This document shows positions 280 to 46,946 of a stretch of DNA of 64,000 bases, piece by piece; within the stretch, counting starts at the first letter, position 1, and each line of letters begins with the position of its first letter. Position numbers and translations under genes: made by a program. A model generated the notes under the pieces. The model worked only from the letters and a program-made list of their open reading frames with translations. It did not search any database and was not told the origin of the DNA. Source of the stretch: Cheilinus undulatus (Eukaryota; Chordata; Actinopteri; Labriformes; Labridae); contig NC_054875.1 of NCBI RefSeq assembly GCF_018320785.1, forward strand, positions 18,168,632 to 18,232,631. Reading direction: 5' to 3'.

Positions 280-298
<19 letters not shown>
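1..298 (+). mobile_element. Poly-A-tailed 3' end of a LINE-like retroposon
   Basis: This AT-rich, non-coding stretch ends in an AATAAA signal (271-276), a short GTT and an A-run. That is how polyadenylated LINE 3'UTRs end, and a retroposed mRNA tail would look the same. No coding sequence lies upstream in the window, so the family cannot be named. The reading rests on the tail alone. Confidence 0.35.
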
Positions 299-318
<20 letters not shown>

Positions 319-320
319 TA
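280..320. repeat. A-run followed by (TA)n microsatellite
   Basis: Seventeen A residues (280-296) run into an uninterrupted TA dinucleotide tract (297-320). It probably grew from the poly-A tail of the retroposon on its left. Confidence 0.9.
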
Positions 321-2746
321 GGTTCGACCATTAACTGAAGCTACAGTGGTCTCTAGTGGTGGGAGGTTCATTAAAGAGAGTAAAGACAGGGATTTATAAC
401 ATACTCAGTTGTTGTTTTTTGGATAATGTTGATATTTATTTTTTTTTTACTAGTAGTTCAAATAAATTTGTTTTGAATACATTTAAATTCAATTCATTTT
501 TGTATTTTGTTTGCTTTTTAATAAGAGGAGCTGGGTGGTTTACTACAGCCTCATGTAACCCATTGTAAAACAATGAAAAATATGTATTTTAGGTTAATGT
601 ATAACAGAAGACTGTGTAATTAACCACCAGACTTCTTGAAGTTTATTAAATTAAGTTTCAAAATCATGAAAAATGAGGCTGTAGTATATGCTCTGGAATG
701 CTGTGAGTATGTTTGCTGAATACATTGAAACCATGCACACTCAAAGGAATTATTATTCTTTTTCAACTCCAAAAATGCACAACCAGAAGGCTCATTCTCT
801 GCCAGGCCTGCTCATAGCCAGAATCAAATTTGTTTCATGTCAGATGTATACTTTTGTAAATGGTAAATGGACTTGCTTTTCTAGTCTACTCAAAGTGCTT
901 TTACAACACATGTCACACCTACCCAGTCAGGGCCTTTTGCTTCATTTCAATCTACATTCATTTGGAGGTTTGGAGGCTATAGAGAATTGATTATCAGTAT
1001 TAGTTATTATCCCCATTCATATGCATCCATACCCATTTACACCCCACTGACAAAGCAGTGGGAGCAATTTGGTGTTAAGTGTCTTGCCCAAGGACAAATT
1101 GACATGGGACTGAAGGAGCTGCGGATCGAACGCACAACCCTATAATTGCAGGACAACTGACTCTACTGAGCATCTTTGTACTACAGAGTGTGAATTGAAT
1201 TTGTCATCATGCATATAAACACATGTTCAGGCCCCCTAATGTTTCATTTTTCAAGTGTATGTGTGATGCAAGGATAGATTCCTTTCCTTTGTTTTTATGG
1301 GACATCTAAATTGTTTGCTGCTAAATATACTCTAAAAATCAAGGAAGTGAGGGCTTTTACTGTGACAACAGAAAGAGTATATTGTTGGCCATACTGCTTT
1401 CGTGGCTAGCAGATTGTATGGAGTCACAACTGCTGCTTTGAGAGAGAGATAGACAGCCATAGCCCACTTAATGAGCACATGTTTATAATATACGCCTTAA
1501 GAATATGTATCTGTATCTACCAGTAGAATCACTGCCTGTGTGTGAAGATGCTTTAAATGTGATTAATGAAATTCTGCTCATGATTTTGGCCCAATTTTGG
1601 CAAATAATGAATATGCCCATACTGTATATTCCCATCCATATACTGTACACTAGCATGCAGCCTGAATTGGCCCGACATGGCACAGGGTCTTCTCTCATTT
1701 GTAGTCTGTCAGGTTACTACAAGGAATCAGTGTAATCAAGCTGATTTGGTCTCTGATGCATGCTCATGTGAGGACTTGCTGTTATACTGCAACTATCCAC
1801 AGGGTGGCCACATACTGTATTTCTGGCGCTGTATGTTGTCCATCATTTGGGTTTGGTGCTAATACTATGCTTTATCATGCAGGAAACTGGTGTACTGTCT
1901 TAATTCAGAGACAGGGAAATTGCACTCTCAAAAAGTCTGAAACAGAAAGGTGACACTGAAAATCGCAGCTTTCATCAAAAAGTTTGTATTCATCATGCCA
2001 GCTTAATAGTAGAAATGCTACTTACGTTTGCCCATTGTTTAATAAGTTTGTCAGGTTGAGGGTAGGAAAAACAAATGTTAAACAATTGCATGCAAAAACA
2101 TTAGATAAGACCAACATATGAAACAATAAAACAAAATTTTAAATGAGAACTTCCACTTTGTCCTCAGTCTTAGATGTAGTCAGGGTAAGGCACACACAAC
2201 AATGCAGTTGTAAAAGTGGAGGACTTGTTTCCCCCCCGCTGATTGTCGGCTAATATGCACAGCCTGCAAAACAAGCGAAGCTTTTTAAAGAGTGGTGGCT
2301 CACTTAGTTGAATATTCACTAATAATGGCTGACAGGTGGATTACTGTAAAACTCACCAAAGGTTAAGTCATTCCTAATGAAACTTTTTTTAATCTAAATT
2401 TATTTTGGGGGGGGTTGCTTGAATAGATTTAGGAGTTTCAAGAAGGAAACAAACATCTTAATGCATCTTAAAAATAAAAATATCATCTAATGCTTTTTCC
2501 TCCTGTGATTTAGTTCAATTTGTGAAACTACCATGTATTCTAGATTCATCGTTAAAAGTGTTTTAAAAAAAACAATGTTTTTGTAGCATTATCCATTGTA
2601 AATTTACAGACAGTATACTGTAGTTATTTTCCTTTTTTACATTAACAAACTTAAATATGAAAACATACATTCAGCACACACCCCACCCACATAAAAGACA
2701 TAACATTAGATACTCTCTTCCAAATACTAATTTGCAAGAAAAAATA
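321..2746. other. Stretch without recognisable gene
   Basis: AT-rich DNA. All open frames are under about 100 codons, overlap one another on both strands and match no family I know. A dispersed repeat lies at 1005-1185. Upstream ppih exons should lie here or left of the window; I looked for the cyclophilin N-terminal coding sequence and did not find it, so this may be ppih intron or flank. Confidence 0.5.
1005..1185. repeat. Dispersed repeat containing the 'gtcttgcccaagga' core
   Basis: The block around 'gagcaatttggtgttaag' and 'gtcttgcccaaggac', followed by a 'gatcgaacgcacaacc' segment, resembles an interspersed repeat common in ray-finned fish genomes. No termini or target duplications are visible, so it is treated as an old fragment of unassigned class. 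Confidence 0.45.
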
Positions 2747-3702
2747 CAGTGCCAAGAAAAAGTATTTGCCCCTTTTCTGATTCCTGATTTTTTTTTTTGC
2801 ATATTTATTACACTTAAATGTTTCGAATCATCAAACCAACCCAAGTAAATACAAAATGCAGTTTCTAAATGATGATTTTATTTATCGATGGGAAAAAATG
2901 CAAACCTATCTGGTCCTATGTGAATAAGTAATTGCCCCCTGAACCTAATAACTGGTTGTGCCACCCTTGGCAGCAATAACTGAAATCAAGCGTTTGCGAT
3001 AACTGGTGATGAGTCTTTCGCATCGCTGTGGAGGAATTTTGGCCCACTCCTCTTTGCAGAATTGTTTTAATTAAGTCATACTGGAGAATTTTCAAGCATG
3101 AACTGCCCGTTTAAGGTCACACCACAGCATCTCAATTGGATTTCAGTCCAGACTTGACTTGGCCACTCCAAAACCTTAACTTTTTTTTTTTTTTTTGAGT
3201 CATTGTTGTACTCTTGGAGTAATTTTGGTTGGCCCACCACTCTTGGGAAGGTTCAATTGCTGTTCCCAGTTTTCTCCATTCGTAGATAATGGCTCTGACT
3301 GTATTCACAGGAGTTCCAAAGCCTTGGAAATGGCTAAAACAAAGATAATATGAGCGATTTCCACTGGAGTGATGACGATGTGCTGTTTACTGTGGAAATG
3401 AGGATATATGTATAAACCGGAGTACACCAGGCATGGGTGTGGCCAATTACTGTTTCACATACGGCCAGATGGGATTGGATTTTTTTTTCCCTTAAATAAA
3501 ATCATCATTTAGAAACTGCATTTTGTATTTACTTGGGTTGTCTTTGTGAGATATTAAAATTGGTGTGATGATCTGAAACATATGAGTGTGATAAATATGA
3601 TAAATATGCAACTATCTTTTCAGCTTAGTTTTAAGACCCAAACCCTCCCCTTCCCTGTGGGTCTTTCAATAACAAATTGATGAGATATCTTTACAATACA
3701 TT

Positions 3703-3837
3703 AAAAAAAAACAAAAAACAAAAAAACAAAAAACAAAAAACAAAACAAAACAAAAACAGAAAAACAATAAAATAAATACATAAATAAATAAATATTTAAA
3801 AAAATTAATTAATAATTCCATATTTCCATATATACAT
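3703..3837. repeat. A-rich low-complexity tract (AAAAAC)n / (AAAT)n
   Basis: Runs of A broken by single C, then AAAT units. It sits in the L1-like 3'UTR just left of the L2 insertion point. Confidence 0.75.
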
Positions 3838-36810: not shown

Positions 36811-37833
36811 CCACATATTTTATCTCCCCATCTCCTACAAGGTCCTTCTACAAGCATTAATTGATAGAGCCTTTTAAAGCTAACAAACAATAAAACGGGC
36901 TAGTGAGGCTACATGGTGCTAGTTTTACTATCAAGCTATCAACCCTTAACAACAGCTTAACTAATTCTGTTACAGTAATGCATCAAATAATCCTTGTAAA
37001 GCCACTGTAGCTCAACAACAGTAAGAATATCAGGAGGGCCTAAACTGAAATAACACTGATTAACTAAAGACTCGACCTAATTCTGGACACTCACAAATAA
37101 AAAAAAGTCACATATTTCCACAGCCCTTGTTTGGAGAATCTCATGGATAGGTCTGTTGATTTCGTAGAGAAGTTCTGATGTAAATTTAGAAAAAAATAAG
37201 TAAATGACTAGACAGTGACGGACTGACACTGAAAAATCAAACTGGCCTTTTCAAAAGACAAATCAACATTAAATCAAATGTTAATAACAAGCTTGACCTG
37301 GAATCTTGGAGACTGAGTTGGTCAATAAATGAGCAACACCGAACAACCAAATGACGTTCAATATAATCATTGCATTACAGCACGGCAAAATTACACACAG
37401 AAAACAAACTCATTTTCTTTTTCTGATTGTGTTATCCACCGAAAACCTTTCAAAAGCTGTCCATAGAAATATATTTCCAATTCAATAATCACCCAAAATA
37501 CACAGGAGAGTTGTGCAGAATTAGCTGTTCACAGTGAGCCTATCTCTGCCTCACTCACAGCTGACAGCTGTCAGTCTCAGCTGCAGCAGCAAGGATAGCT
37601 CCATATCTGGGTCATTCCAGAATTGCGGGTACATTTTGAGTATAGAAAGAAAATGAAAAGTTGTATCGATTTTTTTCAACATTTTTTTTGTTATTCTCAT
37701 AGAACACACTTTAAATTGAACATTTTCAGTATTTGCTGAGCTTAAACCTGTAAGATTTAAAATATTCAATGCCAAAATCACTGTAGTAACAGAAAAATCT
37801 GACGACTCTGTTAGGGACAAATTGGGTCATATA

Positions 37834-38371
37834 CAGTGCTTAACAAATTTATTAGACCACCTGTCATATTTGTTTCAAAGACCATCCAGCATCATGAAGT
37901 GCTTTAATGCAGACTCTTTCATTTTCAGTGAGCTCTCCACGTTTTACCATTTTGAACAGGAATGAGGGATTTAAAACTGAATTCACCCAAATTTGAGCTG
38001 GCTCACTGGGCTTCTCTGAAGTCAGAAATTAATCAAGCATAACATTCAACCACTAAAACTCATTTTTCTATTCAGGAATGCAAGTAAATAATTATAATTT
38101 GACATATTAATCAAGAAATAATGTGCTTTACTATTTTTTCAGTCTTTTTGTAAATCAGTAAATTTGAAAATTCATGGATAACAATAATACTTATATTTTA
38201 GCATTGAAAATATCATTTGGGTTAAAGACCTTCTACATATTGGTGTATTAACCATTGCAGAAACATAAAAAATGATTTTGGTAATTACCAATGCTGTTAA
38301 TTTAGGGCAGCTGTGGCATAAACCTTACTTTGGTTAGGGTTAAGATGGTCTAATAAATTTGTTAAGCATTG
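37834..38371. mobile_element. Nonautonomous Tc1/mariner-like MITE inside the 5.4-kb transposon
   Basis: 538 bp with inverted ends CAGTGCTTAACAAATTTATT (left) and 'aataaatttgttaagcattg' (right), each next to TA (37832-37833, 38372-38373). No transposase remnant. It lies in the left subterminal part of the host transposon, so it inserted later. Confidence 0.88.
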
Positions 38372-38657
38372 TATATATAATAAACAAATCTAATATAATT
38401 TAAAATACAATCTTTCCTAAGAGAATTATTGTCTCTATATCCAATAATCCAACTTAAAGTCTAGTAAGAATGAAACTTTTTGTTTTGGAGTAATATCAAC
38501 ACATTTAAATAAGAAGTTGCCAAGATGGAGCACATTTTCTCCGATCATGGTTTTAAAAATAAATGATGGAATGCTTTGAAATTTCATGTACAGTGGGTAT
38601 ATGAGTTAAGACACAAATTCCAATCACTTTTGCAACAACAAAACAAAACAGATGATA

Positions 38658-38708
38658 AACAGAGTTGACGTTGATGGTAACAGAGTTGACTTTAATAACA
38701 GAGTTGAC
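38658..38708. repeat. Cluster of three AACAGAGTTGAC motifs
   Basis: Copies at about 38659, 38678 and 38696 lie in the same orientation, spaced 18-19 bp, inside the left part of the 5.4-kb transposon. Repeated subterminal motifs are typical transposase-binding sites; the role is inferred. Confidence 0.75.
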
Positions 38709-39188
38709 TAGACATTGTTTGAAGACCAAGGAAAACAACATTTTCTGCCTGACTATGAATATTTTAAAACAAATTTTAAATGTAAAAACAGTCATTTAAG
38801 CCAAACAAATATTTTTGAATTACAAATATTTCATTAATATGGATAATAACTGCATATTTCATGTTTTACGGATCTGACAAGTAAAAGGACTTTAAAAATG
38901 TTTGTAACTGATGAAATTGAAACTTTAAAACAATTTTTAGATGACTGTTGAACTGAAACCTTGAAAACATTCTTAAAATGTAAAAAAAAAACATTTAATC
39001 AGATAAAAGACATCTGAATTACAAATCTGTCTCTCTCTATATAAATTCATTTCATGAACTTGGATAACTTCTTACAAACCTGAACACTAAAATTATTTTC
39101 AAAATGGTTTTGACTAATGAAACTGAAACTATTAAATGAGCTTTCAGATGTTAAATACAATCATTTAATCAGAACAAAGTGATTTGAA

Positions 39189-39228
39189 TGTGTGTGTGTG
39201 TGTGTGTGTGTGTCTCTGTCTGTCTGTC
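39189..39228. repeat. (TG)n / (TCTG)n microsatellite
   Basis: Thirteen TG units followed by TCTG units, just beyond the 3' end of the transposase-like gene in the 5.4-kb transposon. Confidence 0.9.
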
Positions 39229-39366
39229 AAGTAAAATGGTTTTCAAAATGTTTTTTTTTTCCACTGATGGGCAACATCTTGTAGCAAATTCAGGGGCATC
39301 TTGTAATTGAATGTAGCTTGCCTGGATCATGGGCAGGCATGCTAACCAGTAACCTGGGCATGTGAA

Positions 39367-41550
39367 TCAGTCATTGGTGATTTCAGCCCATATTTCTTTG
39401 TTTATTTCTACATGATGTCCTGTCACTGAGGTTGGTTGTGGGATGATTCTAAGGACATCATCAAAAAATACCATAAAGTATCCTCACGGTTTGGCCAGAA
39501 GAAGCGATTTCTTCCCACTTTACGCATGCATGTGACTTTTGCATGGGTTTCACTAACATCTACAATGGTCCCAGGATAAAGTTCATCATCATATTTGATG
39601 ACACACCACTGTCCAACGATGTCTTTACTTTCCCAATTGATTTCACCTGTTGTCTATGCTTGGTGGTCTTCGGTGGTGTTGGGAAGGACAGGTTGATCGA
39701 CAGCTTGGGTGGTGGTAGAAAGGCCACACTGACCGTCAGATTCAGTGGTGGTGGACAGGTTGGGCTGAACATCAAAGTCAAACCTTTGTGACATGTACAC
39801 TCAAGAATCTGCTTAGTTGAGCAGAGACAGCTGACATCCTTGTAGATGACCTTTCTGGGTGTGAGAGTGATCATCTGATGGAGGTGCATTGTTGAAGGGA
39901 CCACCGAGAGTCATTTTGGCATCTTCCTCACAGCTTTGTCAACAGATTCCTCATCAATGTAAAACAGTTGTGTAGAGGTCTGGGCATTCAGTGGATGGTC
40001 ATATAATTTCTTAGCATTTCCTTCACTGACCATCCTGTTTGCTGTTCTTTTCAAAACTCCACCCAGTCCATCTGGAGCACTTTTGCCGTGTCCTGCTTCA
40101 AAGCTCCATGTGCCTTTGTTGAAGCCCTTCTTGAACAACTCTGTGCTCAACATGAAGAAATTGCCTTTCTGACGGTATTGGGTGCATGGTCCATCACAAA
40201 AAAATGAACTAAAGATACTGATGGATGGTTGGCTTTCACATGATCTAGCACAAGGGACAGGTGTGTCCATATAGTGGCTGGACCTTTCTCTTTTGATGCT
40301 GAGATGGTTGTGAAGCATAAATGTTTGTCCACTCCGCCCACATGAAGGATTCCCGTGTGCATAGTCGCCTGCTGCTGAGAAGATGCGAAGTGAACTGCCT
40401 GAATCTCTGCCGACAATTTGCATGCATAGTTTTTTGGAGGAATCCATGTGAATCAAACACTCACGAGATTTCATGCTTTTCTTGAGCTCATGGTGATGGA
40501 TGTTTTGTGTTTTTACGTTGAACTGATGCCTTCTGAAAACTCTCAGCTGGTCCTGGAACATATCAATCATATCTCCAAGAGACCTCTCCATGTCCTTTTT
40601 CACAGTCATGCGGACTGGTTGTGCTTCTTTCTCACTTTCTTTGTTTTTCTTCCTCCTTTCTACCATTTCAGTTGTCCACTGAATACATGTCACTGGAGCC
40701 TCAGCAACGTAGTCACGGTTGAGGTGATAAACATTGCTTCCGCATTTGATGCATTCTCCATAAAAGCATTCTTTGCTTGCAGGATCACGGCATGTTGAGT
40801 TTCCAATGATTTCTGAGTCAGTCGTCCCGAGGAGTTGGAGTGAATAAAGCTTCTGCACAAGGAAGGAGAAGTTTTCATGAACTTTACAAAGGCAGGTTTC
40901 TCTGTCAGATATGGATGGGTGGACAACCCAGAAAGGACGCATTTAACAGAAAAGTGAATACGACAGCTGACTTGATGTATTCTCAAGAAGGTATTTGCGA
41001 TGAAGATTTCTTATGGTATCATTCAGAAACCTTTTCTGCATTTTTACTTTTCCCCTTGTGATTGTTTTTTTCCTGCAGTCTAGTGGCTGACATCATCTCT
41101 CCAAAAAAATTCCTGCACTCTCTTTTGGAGCTTGGTTTGTGTTGTTTGATATTTTCGTCTTTAAAAAGTCAGTTCATTTTGGTTCCTTTTGCCAAATCAC
41201 TTCCTCGATAAACCAAGCGTGGTCTGTATTGTTTTCTGTAGTTTGCAATTTTTTATGATCTTTCCTGACACAATTTGTGATATCCTCTGTCAGTCGCTCT
41301 CTTTTTTGGTATGTTGGTACTTCTGTCTTATTTTATTCATCAGCACATTATGAAGAAAGAGAGTTCTTTGAATCCTTGCAGGGATTTTATGTCCTCTTAT
41401 CTGTTTCTGTGTTTTTGATCAAGGGGAATCAGACACTTGTTTTAATCTCTGGATGCGTTTCTGGTACTTTTTGAGAGCTGTTGTTAATTTTTTCAGCAAA
41501 ATCTTTAATTTATCAATATGTCTGTACAACTTGGAGTTCTCCCGTTTCAT
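39367..41550 (-). pseudogene. Transposase-like protein of the 5.4-kb transposon, degenerate
   Basis: On the minus strand, in switching frames. The N-terminal part (41550 to about 41090) is a Lys-rich coiled-coil-like region ('KRENSKLYRHIDKLKILLKK'). Then 'KMQKRFLNDTIRNLHRKYL', 'MRPFWVVHP', a cysteine cluster ('DPASKECFYGECIKC', about 40780), 'EIQAVHFASSQQQATMHTG' (about 40400), 'FFCDGPCTQYRQKGNFF' (about 40190) and 'EAGHGKSAPDGLGGVLKR' (about 40090). A C-terminal 'GRNRFFWPNRED' block (about 39500) is followed by a stop at 39369-39367. Internal stops and frameshifts are frequent. Similar proteins recur in many fish and invertebrate genomes as uncharacterised repeat products. The invariant Asp/His-Gly blocks could be a DDE-type catalytic core, but that is not shown here. 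Confidence 0.7.
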
Positions 41551-42334
41551 TTTTTTTTGTCCTGACCTTCTTTGTCTGAAACTATGGGACAAAAAATTAA
41601 AGTGAATTCAAAGCATCTGATTTTAATTAGGTGCACGATCAGAGCATGTGAGCAGAGTGGAGCGATGAGATTTCCCGCATATATTACACACTGCACCTTT
41701 AAGATACAACACATGTAAGAAACAGTTCAGTCTGCAACTTGACAATTAAAGAACACTTTTTTCACTACACCTGTGGCCCATTGTCCACAATAAAATAGAC
41801 TCATGGTCCTATGTGCTAATCTAACCTGGATGTCTGTGGTTCAGGGCCTGGCTCAGGACTTTGTGTCATCACTACAAGAATCTTCTTTCTTGCTCTGCAT
41901 CTCTACTGTGCCTCTCTCCAAAACCTGCATTTGTGCCTTTGCTCCCTTTCATCCAGATCGGCTACTGTTCTTATCTGTCCTGCATTCTTTTGTGCCATCT
42001 ATTTCTGTCTTTCTCCAAATTTTCAGCCTTCCTTACAGGGTCAGCGTCTCACCGTGCCCTGTATTGGCACTGTCTTTCTGCTGCTGACAGCTTCATCTGG
42101 AACCGAAATTATTGAACATCCTTAACTTGGAATGCTATACCACAAATATTTATTTTTCAATAAAATGATTCAAAAACCCTTATAAATATCAAATAACACA
42201 TATAATCAGATACGATGACTAATCAGATACTATGACTAATGATAATATAATAATCCAAAAATAATCCATAATGAAGGTAGAATAATGCAAAAATACTTAT
42301 ATGTGCTTGGAAACATTTAACTTTGTTACTCATC

Positions 42335-42386
42335 GTCAACTCTGTTATCAGTTGATGATAACAGAGTTGACAGTAACAGAGTTGAC
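42335..42386. repeat. Perfect palindrome of the GTCAACTCTGTTATC motif plus a third copy
   Basis: Arms of 15 bp, GTCAACTCTGTTATC (42335-42349) and its exact reverse complement (42357-42371), are separated by 7 bp. A further 'gtaacagagttgac' follows at 42373-42386. A variant with one change sits at about 42650-42662. All lie in the right subterminal region of the 5.4-kb transposon. Confidence 0.88.
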
Positions 42387-43028
42387 CTTTTCCACCATTT
42401 TGTACTTTAACCGTCTGTGCTAACCCCAAACAAGCTAGCACACAACATGTCTAAAAGTAGAATTATATTGGTGTATTATTATTGGTGTACTCTCGACATT
42501 TTGTACAAAATAATGAGAGAAAAAGCATTACATACCTCATACCTCACTGCCTTTCCATATTTCCCGCCAAAGAAAGTAACATCACCATCAGCAGGTCACA
42601 TGATCTCTATAAAATTTTTTGGAGATTTTTATGCAGTTTTACAGTAGTGATAACAAAGTTGACCAGAACACGGAGACACTGAAATTTAATAAAACACAGA
42701 AAGTATATATCCTATGCAAATGATCATATAACTGTTAATACTGAAAGCATAAAAAAAAGAAAATTAAACTCAATTATTTCATGTTAATTCAAGTGTGAAT
42801 CAGGAGCTGGAGCTAAGTAATGGGGGGGGGGGGGTTAGGTGTCATGTAGCTAGTATTTAAAATATAAATTGTGTCTAAAATATATATCAAGCATTTTTAT
42901 CCGAGAAAGGATAGCACTGTTAGTAATATTACTCAAAGATGATTCAATAAAGATTTTTTGGGAGGGGAATAATATAAGGTTTATTTGGGAGATGCGAAAT
43001 GTACCCGCAATTCTGGAATGACCCATCT

Positions 43029-46440: not shown

Positions 46441-46946
46441 CGGTACCCTTTTCCCCCCTGTGCCACGCCCTTGGGGCAACCTAACCACTAGACCCACACT
46501 ATTCAGTTGGAGGTCCTTGAGCTAAATCGGACCCTCAAGCAATATGTATAATTTCTGCACTTAAATATCTATATTAATCTAAAAATTGGCCATTTTGAAA
46601 CATGGAAACCACCCACACTCACAATTTACAGGGAGTTAAGAGCAGCACTGCTCAGTCTTCAGCCTCATTCTCTACACTCGTTTTAGTTTTGAGTTGAGGA
46701 TTCAATAAAATCATCACCTCAGAAGGTGTGCTTACTAAACAAAAAAATCAATGTTTGGCTTTCATCAATACATTCCTCTTTATGAGGAAGAAATGCTCTG
46801 AAAAACACTTGAAAAGGCACTTCCAAGTTTGTGCTGATAGTGATGCTAGAGTGCATACGTATCTTGGGTCTGCATCCAGTAGTTTCTGTTAAGTAAATAC
46901 GCTGTATAGTGTGACCAGAGGGACAGAGACCACTTGCTTCATATAA
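46441..46946. other. Unassigned intergenic stretch
   Basis: No gene recognised. It runs into the truncated left edge of a Tc1 fragment. Confidence 0.55.

Follow-up and report, generated by a model that had tools for sequence, protein, structure and literature searches.

We analyzed a stretch of 64,000 nucleotides from the fish Cheilinus undulatus (contig NC_054875.1, positions 18,168,632 to 18,232,631; hereafter the window, with positions counted from its first base) and read its interval 37609..43024, the focal element, as a decayed DNA transposon of the cut-and-paste type that most likely belongs to the Sola superfamily, with a probability of about 0.66. This reading is carried by exact ends, by independent 4-bp duplications of the target, by a multicopy protein family with conserved Asp/Asp/Asp and HGK..DG.GG residues, and by short words clustered inside the ends.

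Ends, duplications and the broken gene of the focal element

The focal element is 5416 bp long, including a smaller element nested in it, and it starts with GG and finishes with CC. Its terminal inverted repeats (TIRs) are 28-mers (GGGTCATT...) with 0 mismatches between the inverted copies, and ATCT abuts both ends (Table 1); the original prediction, which was made from the letters of this DNA without database searches, had described these repeats and flanks correctly to the base. No further match to the 28-mer with up to 3 mismatches was present in the window, and the mean was 0.00 over 100 window shuffles. When the genome of the same species was searched (1.17 Gb in 46 contigs, which are labeled C1, C4, C22 and so on), the same tolerance gave 6 matches, and a reversed control gave 0. 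These matches were the focal pair, a pair on C4 with a span of 3732 bp, and single ends on C1 and C19, each without a partner end in the 9 kb that were read there. Most of the coding part is missing from the C4 copy, and ACAC is found at both of its sides. The 28-mers pair again at C4, flanked by another 4-bp duplication, which supports the predicted DNA transposon with these exact ends. The ends of this family were nearly unchanged (five of the six perfect, the sixth with one mismatch) while the rest of the copies differed by ~4–14%; searching for near-identical ends favors such apparent conservation at the six places.

The gene of the focal element lies on the minus strand (41589-39450) and is split over three frames, and its joined pieces contain 7 stops. 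RPFWVVHP, the Cys cluster, FFCDGPCTQY and GHGKSAPDGLGG share one frame, a second holds the Lys-rich N-terminal region together with a piece from the middle (PKNYAC...SLVHFF), and RFFWPNRED is in a third. Splicing could explain part of the shifts in frame, but not the stops inside conserved pieces. The focal copy is read as a relic, unable to make a whole transposase. The peptide blocks quoted in the original prediction are all found on the minus strand, but not in a single frame; the breakage of the gene and the nested element had both escaped it. The window pieces and the joined reading gave only weak matches in Pfam, under the curated cut-offs, and a search of PDB with the focal gene returned nothing below an E-value of 0.1.

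Relatives of the gene and of the ends

Genome-wide, the focal coding DNA had 4 further matches, at 68–71% identity only. At the protein level, the core of the joined reading gave 35 matches, grouped by hand into 20 places, a lower bound that includes the focal locus and counts an inverted pair on C15 as two. This bears out the predicted multicopy nature of the protein. At C22, the relative was stop-free over the 428-amino acid query and had an open frame of 531 amino acids. The C22 gene is inside a 4698-bp element (L096:1838-6535) whose ends, GGGTCATTGACG and GGGTCAATGACG, are similar GGGTCATT-type ends, with ATAT at both sides and TIRs of 12 bp with one mismatch. The gene and the 28-mers were found together in the focal copy only, and the predicted link of gene and ends rests on this C22 relative. 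A 120-amino acid frame at 4751-5113 of L096 is a possible upstream exon.

The left end of the C22 element matched 9 places genome-wide, all starting at the first base of the end, and the right end had 12 matches, 10 of which stopped at its last base. Both ends were found at 7 places, representing 6 independent insertions, since two C7 copies with identical flanks were counted once. Exact 4-bp duplications were observed for 4 of the 6 (ATAT, AGGC, GGTT and ACCT), including the copies at C17, C15 and C7. One-ended places (C16, C21, C8, two on C18, and C10) and an internal C15 match were omitted from this tally. The two C7 copies (C7:50115950 and C7:51011104) lie 0.9 Mb from each other and point in opposite directions. 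Since their flanks are identical at either side, they probably arose by duplication of a chromosome segment and not by two separate insertions. On C15, the inverted pair (L097, C15:11196897-11199965) consists of two similar transposase genes separated by ~0.7 kb; their open frames are ~300 amino acids long, and the arms are near-identical.

A third end family, GAGTCATTCC, was represented by a 2.1-kb element on C20, whose two ends (2 and 3 mismatches) resemble the single end of a coding relative on C4 (at 11.85 Mb, see below) and which has TCAA at both sides. The C20-type end pattern gave 7 matches and the backward pattern 4, so lone matches at 3 mismatches mean little. Altogether, exact 4-bp duplications were found for 7 of 10 independent two-ended insertions of this genome in four end families (7 of 11 when the distant relative L019, described below, is included): 2 of 2 in the focal family (ATCT and ACAC), 4 of 6 in the C22 family, 1 of 1 in the GAGTCATTCC family (TCAA), and 0 of 1 in the family of a neighboring element. 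With equal base use, the chance of an exact 4-bp duplication is 1/256 for each insertion.

A degenerate HGK..DG.GG pattern was also run against 84,980 genomes of bacterial and archaeal species, and one of the 32 loci found, L019 (JAAEPJ010000558.1, a 4-kb contig in a bacterial metagenome bin), was a convincing relative, presumably eukaryotic contamination of that bin. Its open frame of 705 amino acids is collinear with residues 117-698 of the joined reading (tblastn, 3e-34), and it has inverted ends of 12 bp, GGGCAATTCCAT, from 288 to 3823. Two other loci from the same pattern, L018 and L010, were rejected, with short matches at E-values of 2.3 and 8.1 only. Among IMG/VR viral contigs, the TIR pattern, the motif pattern and three protein searches returned nothing.

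In an alignment of four rows (C22, L019, the joined focal core and C15), the invariant residues, in C22 numbering, include D215, N219, Q229, D296, G297, P298, Q301 and W325, followed by H332, G333, K334, D338, G339, G341 and K345. D215, D296 and D338, invariant in all four rows and thus also retained by L019, form the candidate catalytic triad. In a wider count of 19 rows, of which two (C11b) miss the sites and two represent the same C17 place, the first Asp was present in 13 of 14 covering rows, the second in 16 of 17 and the third in 11 of 16. Neither L019 nor the C22 protein reached any Pfam or NCBIfam model, and no Pfam integrase or other DDE (Asp-Asp-Glu) model was reached at E-values up to 10 by the window pieces, the joined reading or L019, within the limits of HMMER filters, which may miss weak relatives. 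A profile match in PDB to the HRDC domain of BLM (E-value 1.6e-4) was discarded when it fell to 0.36 once the two C15 rows had been trimmed to the in-frame segment and reduced to one; the cleaned profile found nothing in PDB below 0.3.

Clustered words, feature coordinates and the neighboring element

The noncoding flanks of the focal element contain 8 copies of GTCAACTCTGTTA (up to 2 mismatches). Elsewhere in the window there were 5 copies, 4 of them inside the neighboring element, whose own word is one base apart from the focal word. When the best mismatch-tolerant word of each element, a 13-mer in the focal one, was compared with the maximum of 20 random first-order sequences, with some repeats excluded, the counts were 8 vs 5 for the focal element, 8 vs 5 for C22, 8 vs 6 for L019 and 6 vs 5 for the neighbor. 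Words damaged in the focal element are exact in the C4 copy (Table 1). In all, four element families each have repeated 13–15-bp words near their ends: GTCAACTCTGTTA, GTCAACTGTGTTA, GTCGCCCCACATGAT and GTGTTGGACGTAC. Genome-wide, the GTCAACT word had 156 matches and the reversed pattern 143; this background level excludes the explanation that the word is merely common and makes its cluster inside the element special. Two observations speak against giving these words a role: exact 11-mers showed no excess over random sequences in C22, and the excess in the neighbor is slight. With up to 1 mismatch, the focal word was absent from 18 coding places scanned with limited flanks, C5:6.03 Mb left out. 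Some other word clusters resemble a tandem array, for example at C1:39.10 Mb, where the spacings are mostly multiples of 20.

Table 1. Features of the focal element and its flanks (positions in the window)
Feature	Position	Strand	Remark
Target site duplication ATCT, left copy	37605..37608		
Terminal inverted repeat, left, 28 bp	37609..37636	+	
Subterminal repeat word GTCAACTCTGTTA	37801..37813	+	2 mismatches in focal element; exact in C4 copy
Nested element, like a miniature inverted-repeat transposable element, CAGTGCTTAACAAATTTATTAGACCACC ends, within TA repeat	37834..38371		
Three subterminal repeat words (38657-38669, 38678-38690, 38696-38708)	38657..38708	-	
3' coding piece: C-terminal part, RFFWPNRED	39450..39767	-	one stop
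Coding piece: CDGPCTQY and GHGKSAPDGLGG, candidate acidic residues 2 and 3	39791..40198	-	one stop
Coding piece between candidate Asp 1 and 2	40198..40437	-	different frame
Coding piece: RPFWVVHP, Cys/His cluster, candidate Asp 1 (IHMDS)	40439..41065	-	one stop
Coding piece	41065..41136	-	one stop
5' coding piece: N-terminal part, Lys-rich and coiled-coil-like	41164..41589	-	three stops
Three subterminal repeat words (42335-42347 +, 42359-42371 -, 42374-42386 -)	42335..42386		
Subterminal repeat word	42651..42663	-	1 mismatch in focal element; exact in C4 copy
Terminal inverted repeat, right, 28 bp	42997..43024	-	
Target site duplication ATCT, right copy	43025..43028		

The small nested element is TA-flanked, with long inverted ends, and is missing from this position in the C4, C1 and C19 copies. 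The neighboring element (44689 to ~46432) is nonautonomous and belongs to another family; its start, GAGTCATTCTCTAATTAGGGGTACATTTC, is close to the focal GGGTCATTCCAGAATTGCGGGTACATTTT, no right end was seen at this locus, and it contains four exact GTCAACTGTGTTA words. Its relatives were found on C14, C21, C13, C9 and C10; two on C21 with GAGTCATTC ends (9 bp only) have the same flanks and were taken as one insertion. A short high-copy repeat occupies 46529-46700, and 27 of 45 among the matches listed fell in query 1840-2011 (40 of 170 candidates were scored).

Superfamily assignment and comparison with known transposons

Sola elements are described, in the excerpt available of PMC10741241, as having a DDD (Asp-Asp-Asp) transposase, 4-bp duplications, sizes of mostly 2–9 kb and TIRs of 11–1124 bp. 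For Sola2, the portion available of PMC3627910 gives TIRs of 12–21 bp and AT-rich 4-bp duplications, and the superfamily was reported from zebrafish, medaka and stickleback and as absent from tetraodon (PMC4746887, in part). The elements described here resemble Sola in their 4-bp duplications, in the TIRs of the focal and the C22 element, which are within the reported range (the C21 relatives of the neighboring element have 9 bp), in the sizes of these two elements, which are inside 2–9 kb, and possibly in the candidate triad of conserved Asp. The SDG..Q and HGK..DG.GG motifs are presumably Sola motifs as well. In the proposed mechanism, a transposase made up of an N-terminal part rich in Lys, a cluster of Cys and His, a DDD core for catalysis and a small C-terminal part would recognize the 28-bp ends together with the 13-bp words, which lie some hundreds of bases inward of both ends. 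It would then excise the element and insert it into a target cut with a stagger of 4 bases, which would generate the 4-bp duplications. The kind of transposon, which the original prediction had called poorly described, is probably already described, as DDD, 4-bp duplications and size fit the Sola account (PMC10741241, as excerpted).

Several observations weigh against this assignment. It is based on published features rather than on sequence homology to Sola transposases, and the portions available of PMC4455052, PMC5753468, PMC9033089, PMC5199201, PMC9341512 and PMC11071193 contained no Sola end sequence or protein. Also, AGGC, GGTT and ACCT are not AT-rich, and clustered subterminal words go unmentioned in the excerpts of Sola descriptions. 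Exact 4-bp repeats were missing from 3 of the 10 own-genome insertions, with no duplication at C3 or at C21 (TGCT and TAAA) and 3 of 4 bases alike at C1 (ATCT vs ATTT); the flanks of L019 (AGAA and ATTT) likewise show none. The gene and the 28-mers are combined only in the focal copy, the C4 pair being without the gene, and, C22 aside, GGGTCATT was found at no further protein place. Among three protein places for which wider flanks were read, ends were seen at C22 only, with no duplicated ends beyond simple AT repeats at C15 and C16. The G[AG]GTCATTC end pattern occurred at a single locus among the 14 scanned. This coding relative, at C4:11.85 Mb, has one end, GAGTCATTCCACGAG, and its second end was not found. 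As for the protein, the third Asp was replaced in 4 of 16 rows (by Ala in three and by Tyr in one) and gapped in another, mostly in broken copies, and 11 of 16 rows have a Glu three positions ahead of the His in HGK, which makes DDE possible; DDD may be slightly favored, given that L019, a single sequence, has Ala where others have this Glu. One AlphaFold prediction, for the L019 core together with window pieces (mean predicted local distance difference test score 35.4, predicted template modeling score 0.29), was too poor for a fold search and neither backed nor refuted an RNase H fold.

It is unlikely, though not negligibly so, that the elements form an undescribed DDE/D group with 4-bp duplications, a superfamily of its own outside Sola that works in the same way. 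This would be consistent with the failure of L019 and C22 to reach a Pfam or NCBIfam model, with a cleaned profile that matches nothing convincing in PDB, with six short motif strings that had no match in the literature searched, and with the several duplications that are not AT-rich. However, size, duplication length and candidate triad match the Sola account (PMC10741241, in part), and absence from Pfam says little if Pfam is without a Sola model. A related and equally tentative suggestion is that these transposases dock on family-specific, fast-changing arrays of 13–15-bp words near both ends, with the outermost GRG..ATT nearly fixed across hosts and the word changing with the family; such a group may lie outside Sola. 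If so, co-evolution of transposase and word would be readable from sequence.

The clustered words predict concrete positions at which the transposase may bind, and the docking pattern is the part most worth following. Ends, duplication length and protein are tied together here for a family whose tested members reach no Pfam or NCBIfam model, and C22 offers a testable relative in the same genome that has both of its ends and an open frame.

It is improbable that the elements belong to one of the other known superfamilies whose duplications are 4 bp or similar (Kolobok, Ginger, Chapaev or Academ). Kolobok targets TTAA and follows a 5'-RR...YY-3' end rule (PMC9587614, in the excerpt available), and the purine-first, pyrimidine-last ends (GG...CC) and the 4-bp duplications agree with it, but TTAA was found in 0 of 7 duplications (ATCT, ACAC, ATAT, AGGC, GGTT, ACCT and TCAA). 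The lack of a Pfam integrase or DDE match argues against this group more generally, within HMMER filter sensitivity; for Ginger, the retroviral-type integrase core had no Pfam match at E-values up to 10, although weak relatives could escape. It is highly improbable that a host gene (a domesticated transposase or an ordinary multigene family) lies between inverted repeats by chance. The C22 frame is stop-free and the C15 pair has long open frames with no ends found, but the gene of the focal element is broken, the 28-mers on C4 enclose a copy that lacks the gene, and 8 further places match the left end of the C22 element, with exact 4-bp duplications at C17, C15 and C7.

The original prediction had set the protein apart from Tc1 and hAT transposases. 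The TA duplication of Tc1/mariner was not seen for the focal element, whose duplications are 4 bp, whereas the small nested element does sit in a TA repeat. Duplications of hAT elements are 8 bp, and no hAT model in Pfam was reached. Compared with maize Ac/Ds, a hAT system that serves as a mechanistic analogy only, the words described here are longer (13–15 bp) and lie farther inside. Ac/Ds likewise combines short TIRs with a short word that is repeated in the vicinity of its two ends. In Ac, the copies of this word, AAACGG, bind the transposase (PMC3260210, as excerpted), and the clustered words described here may likewise be transposase-binding sites.

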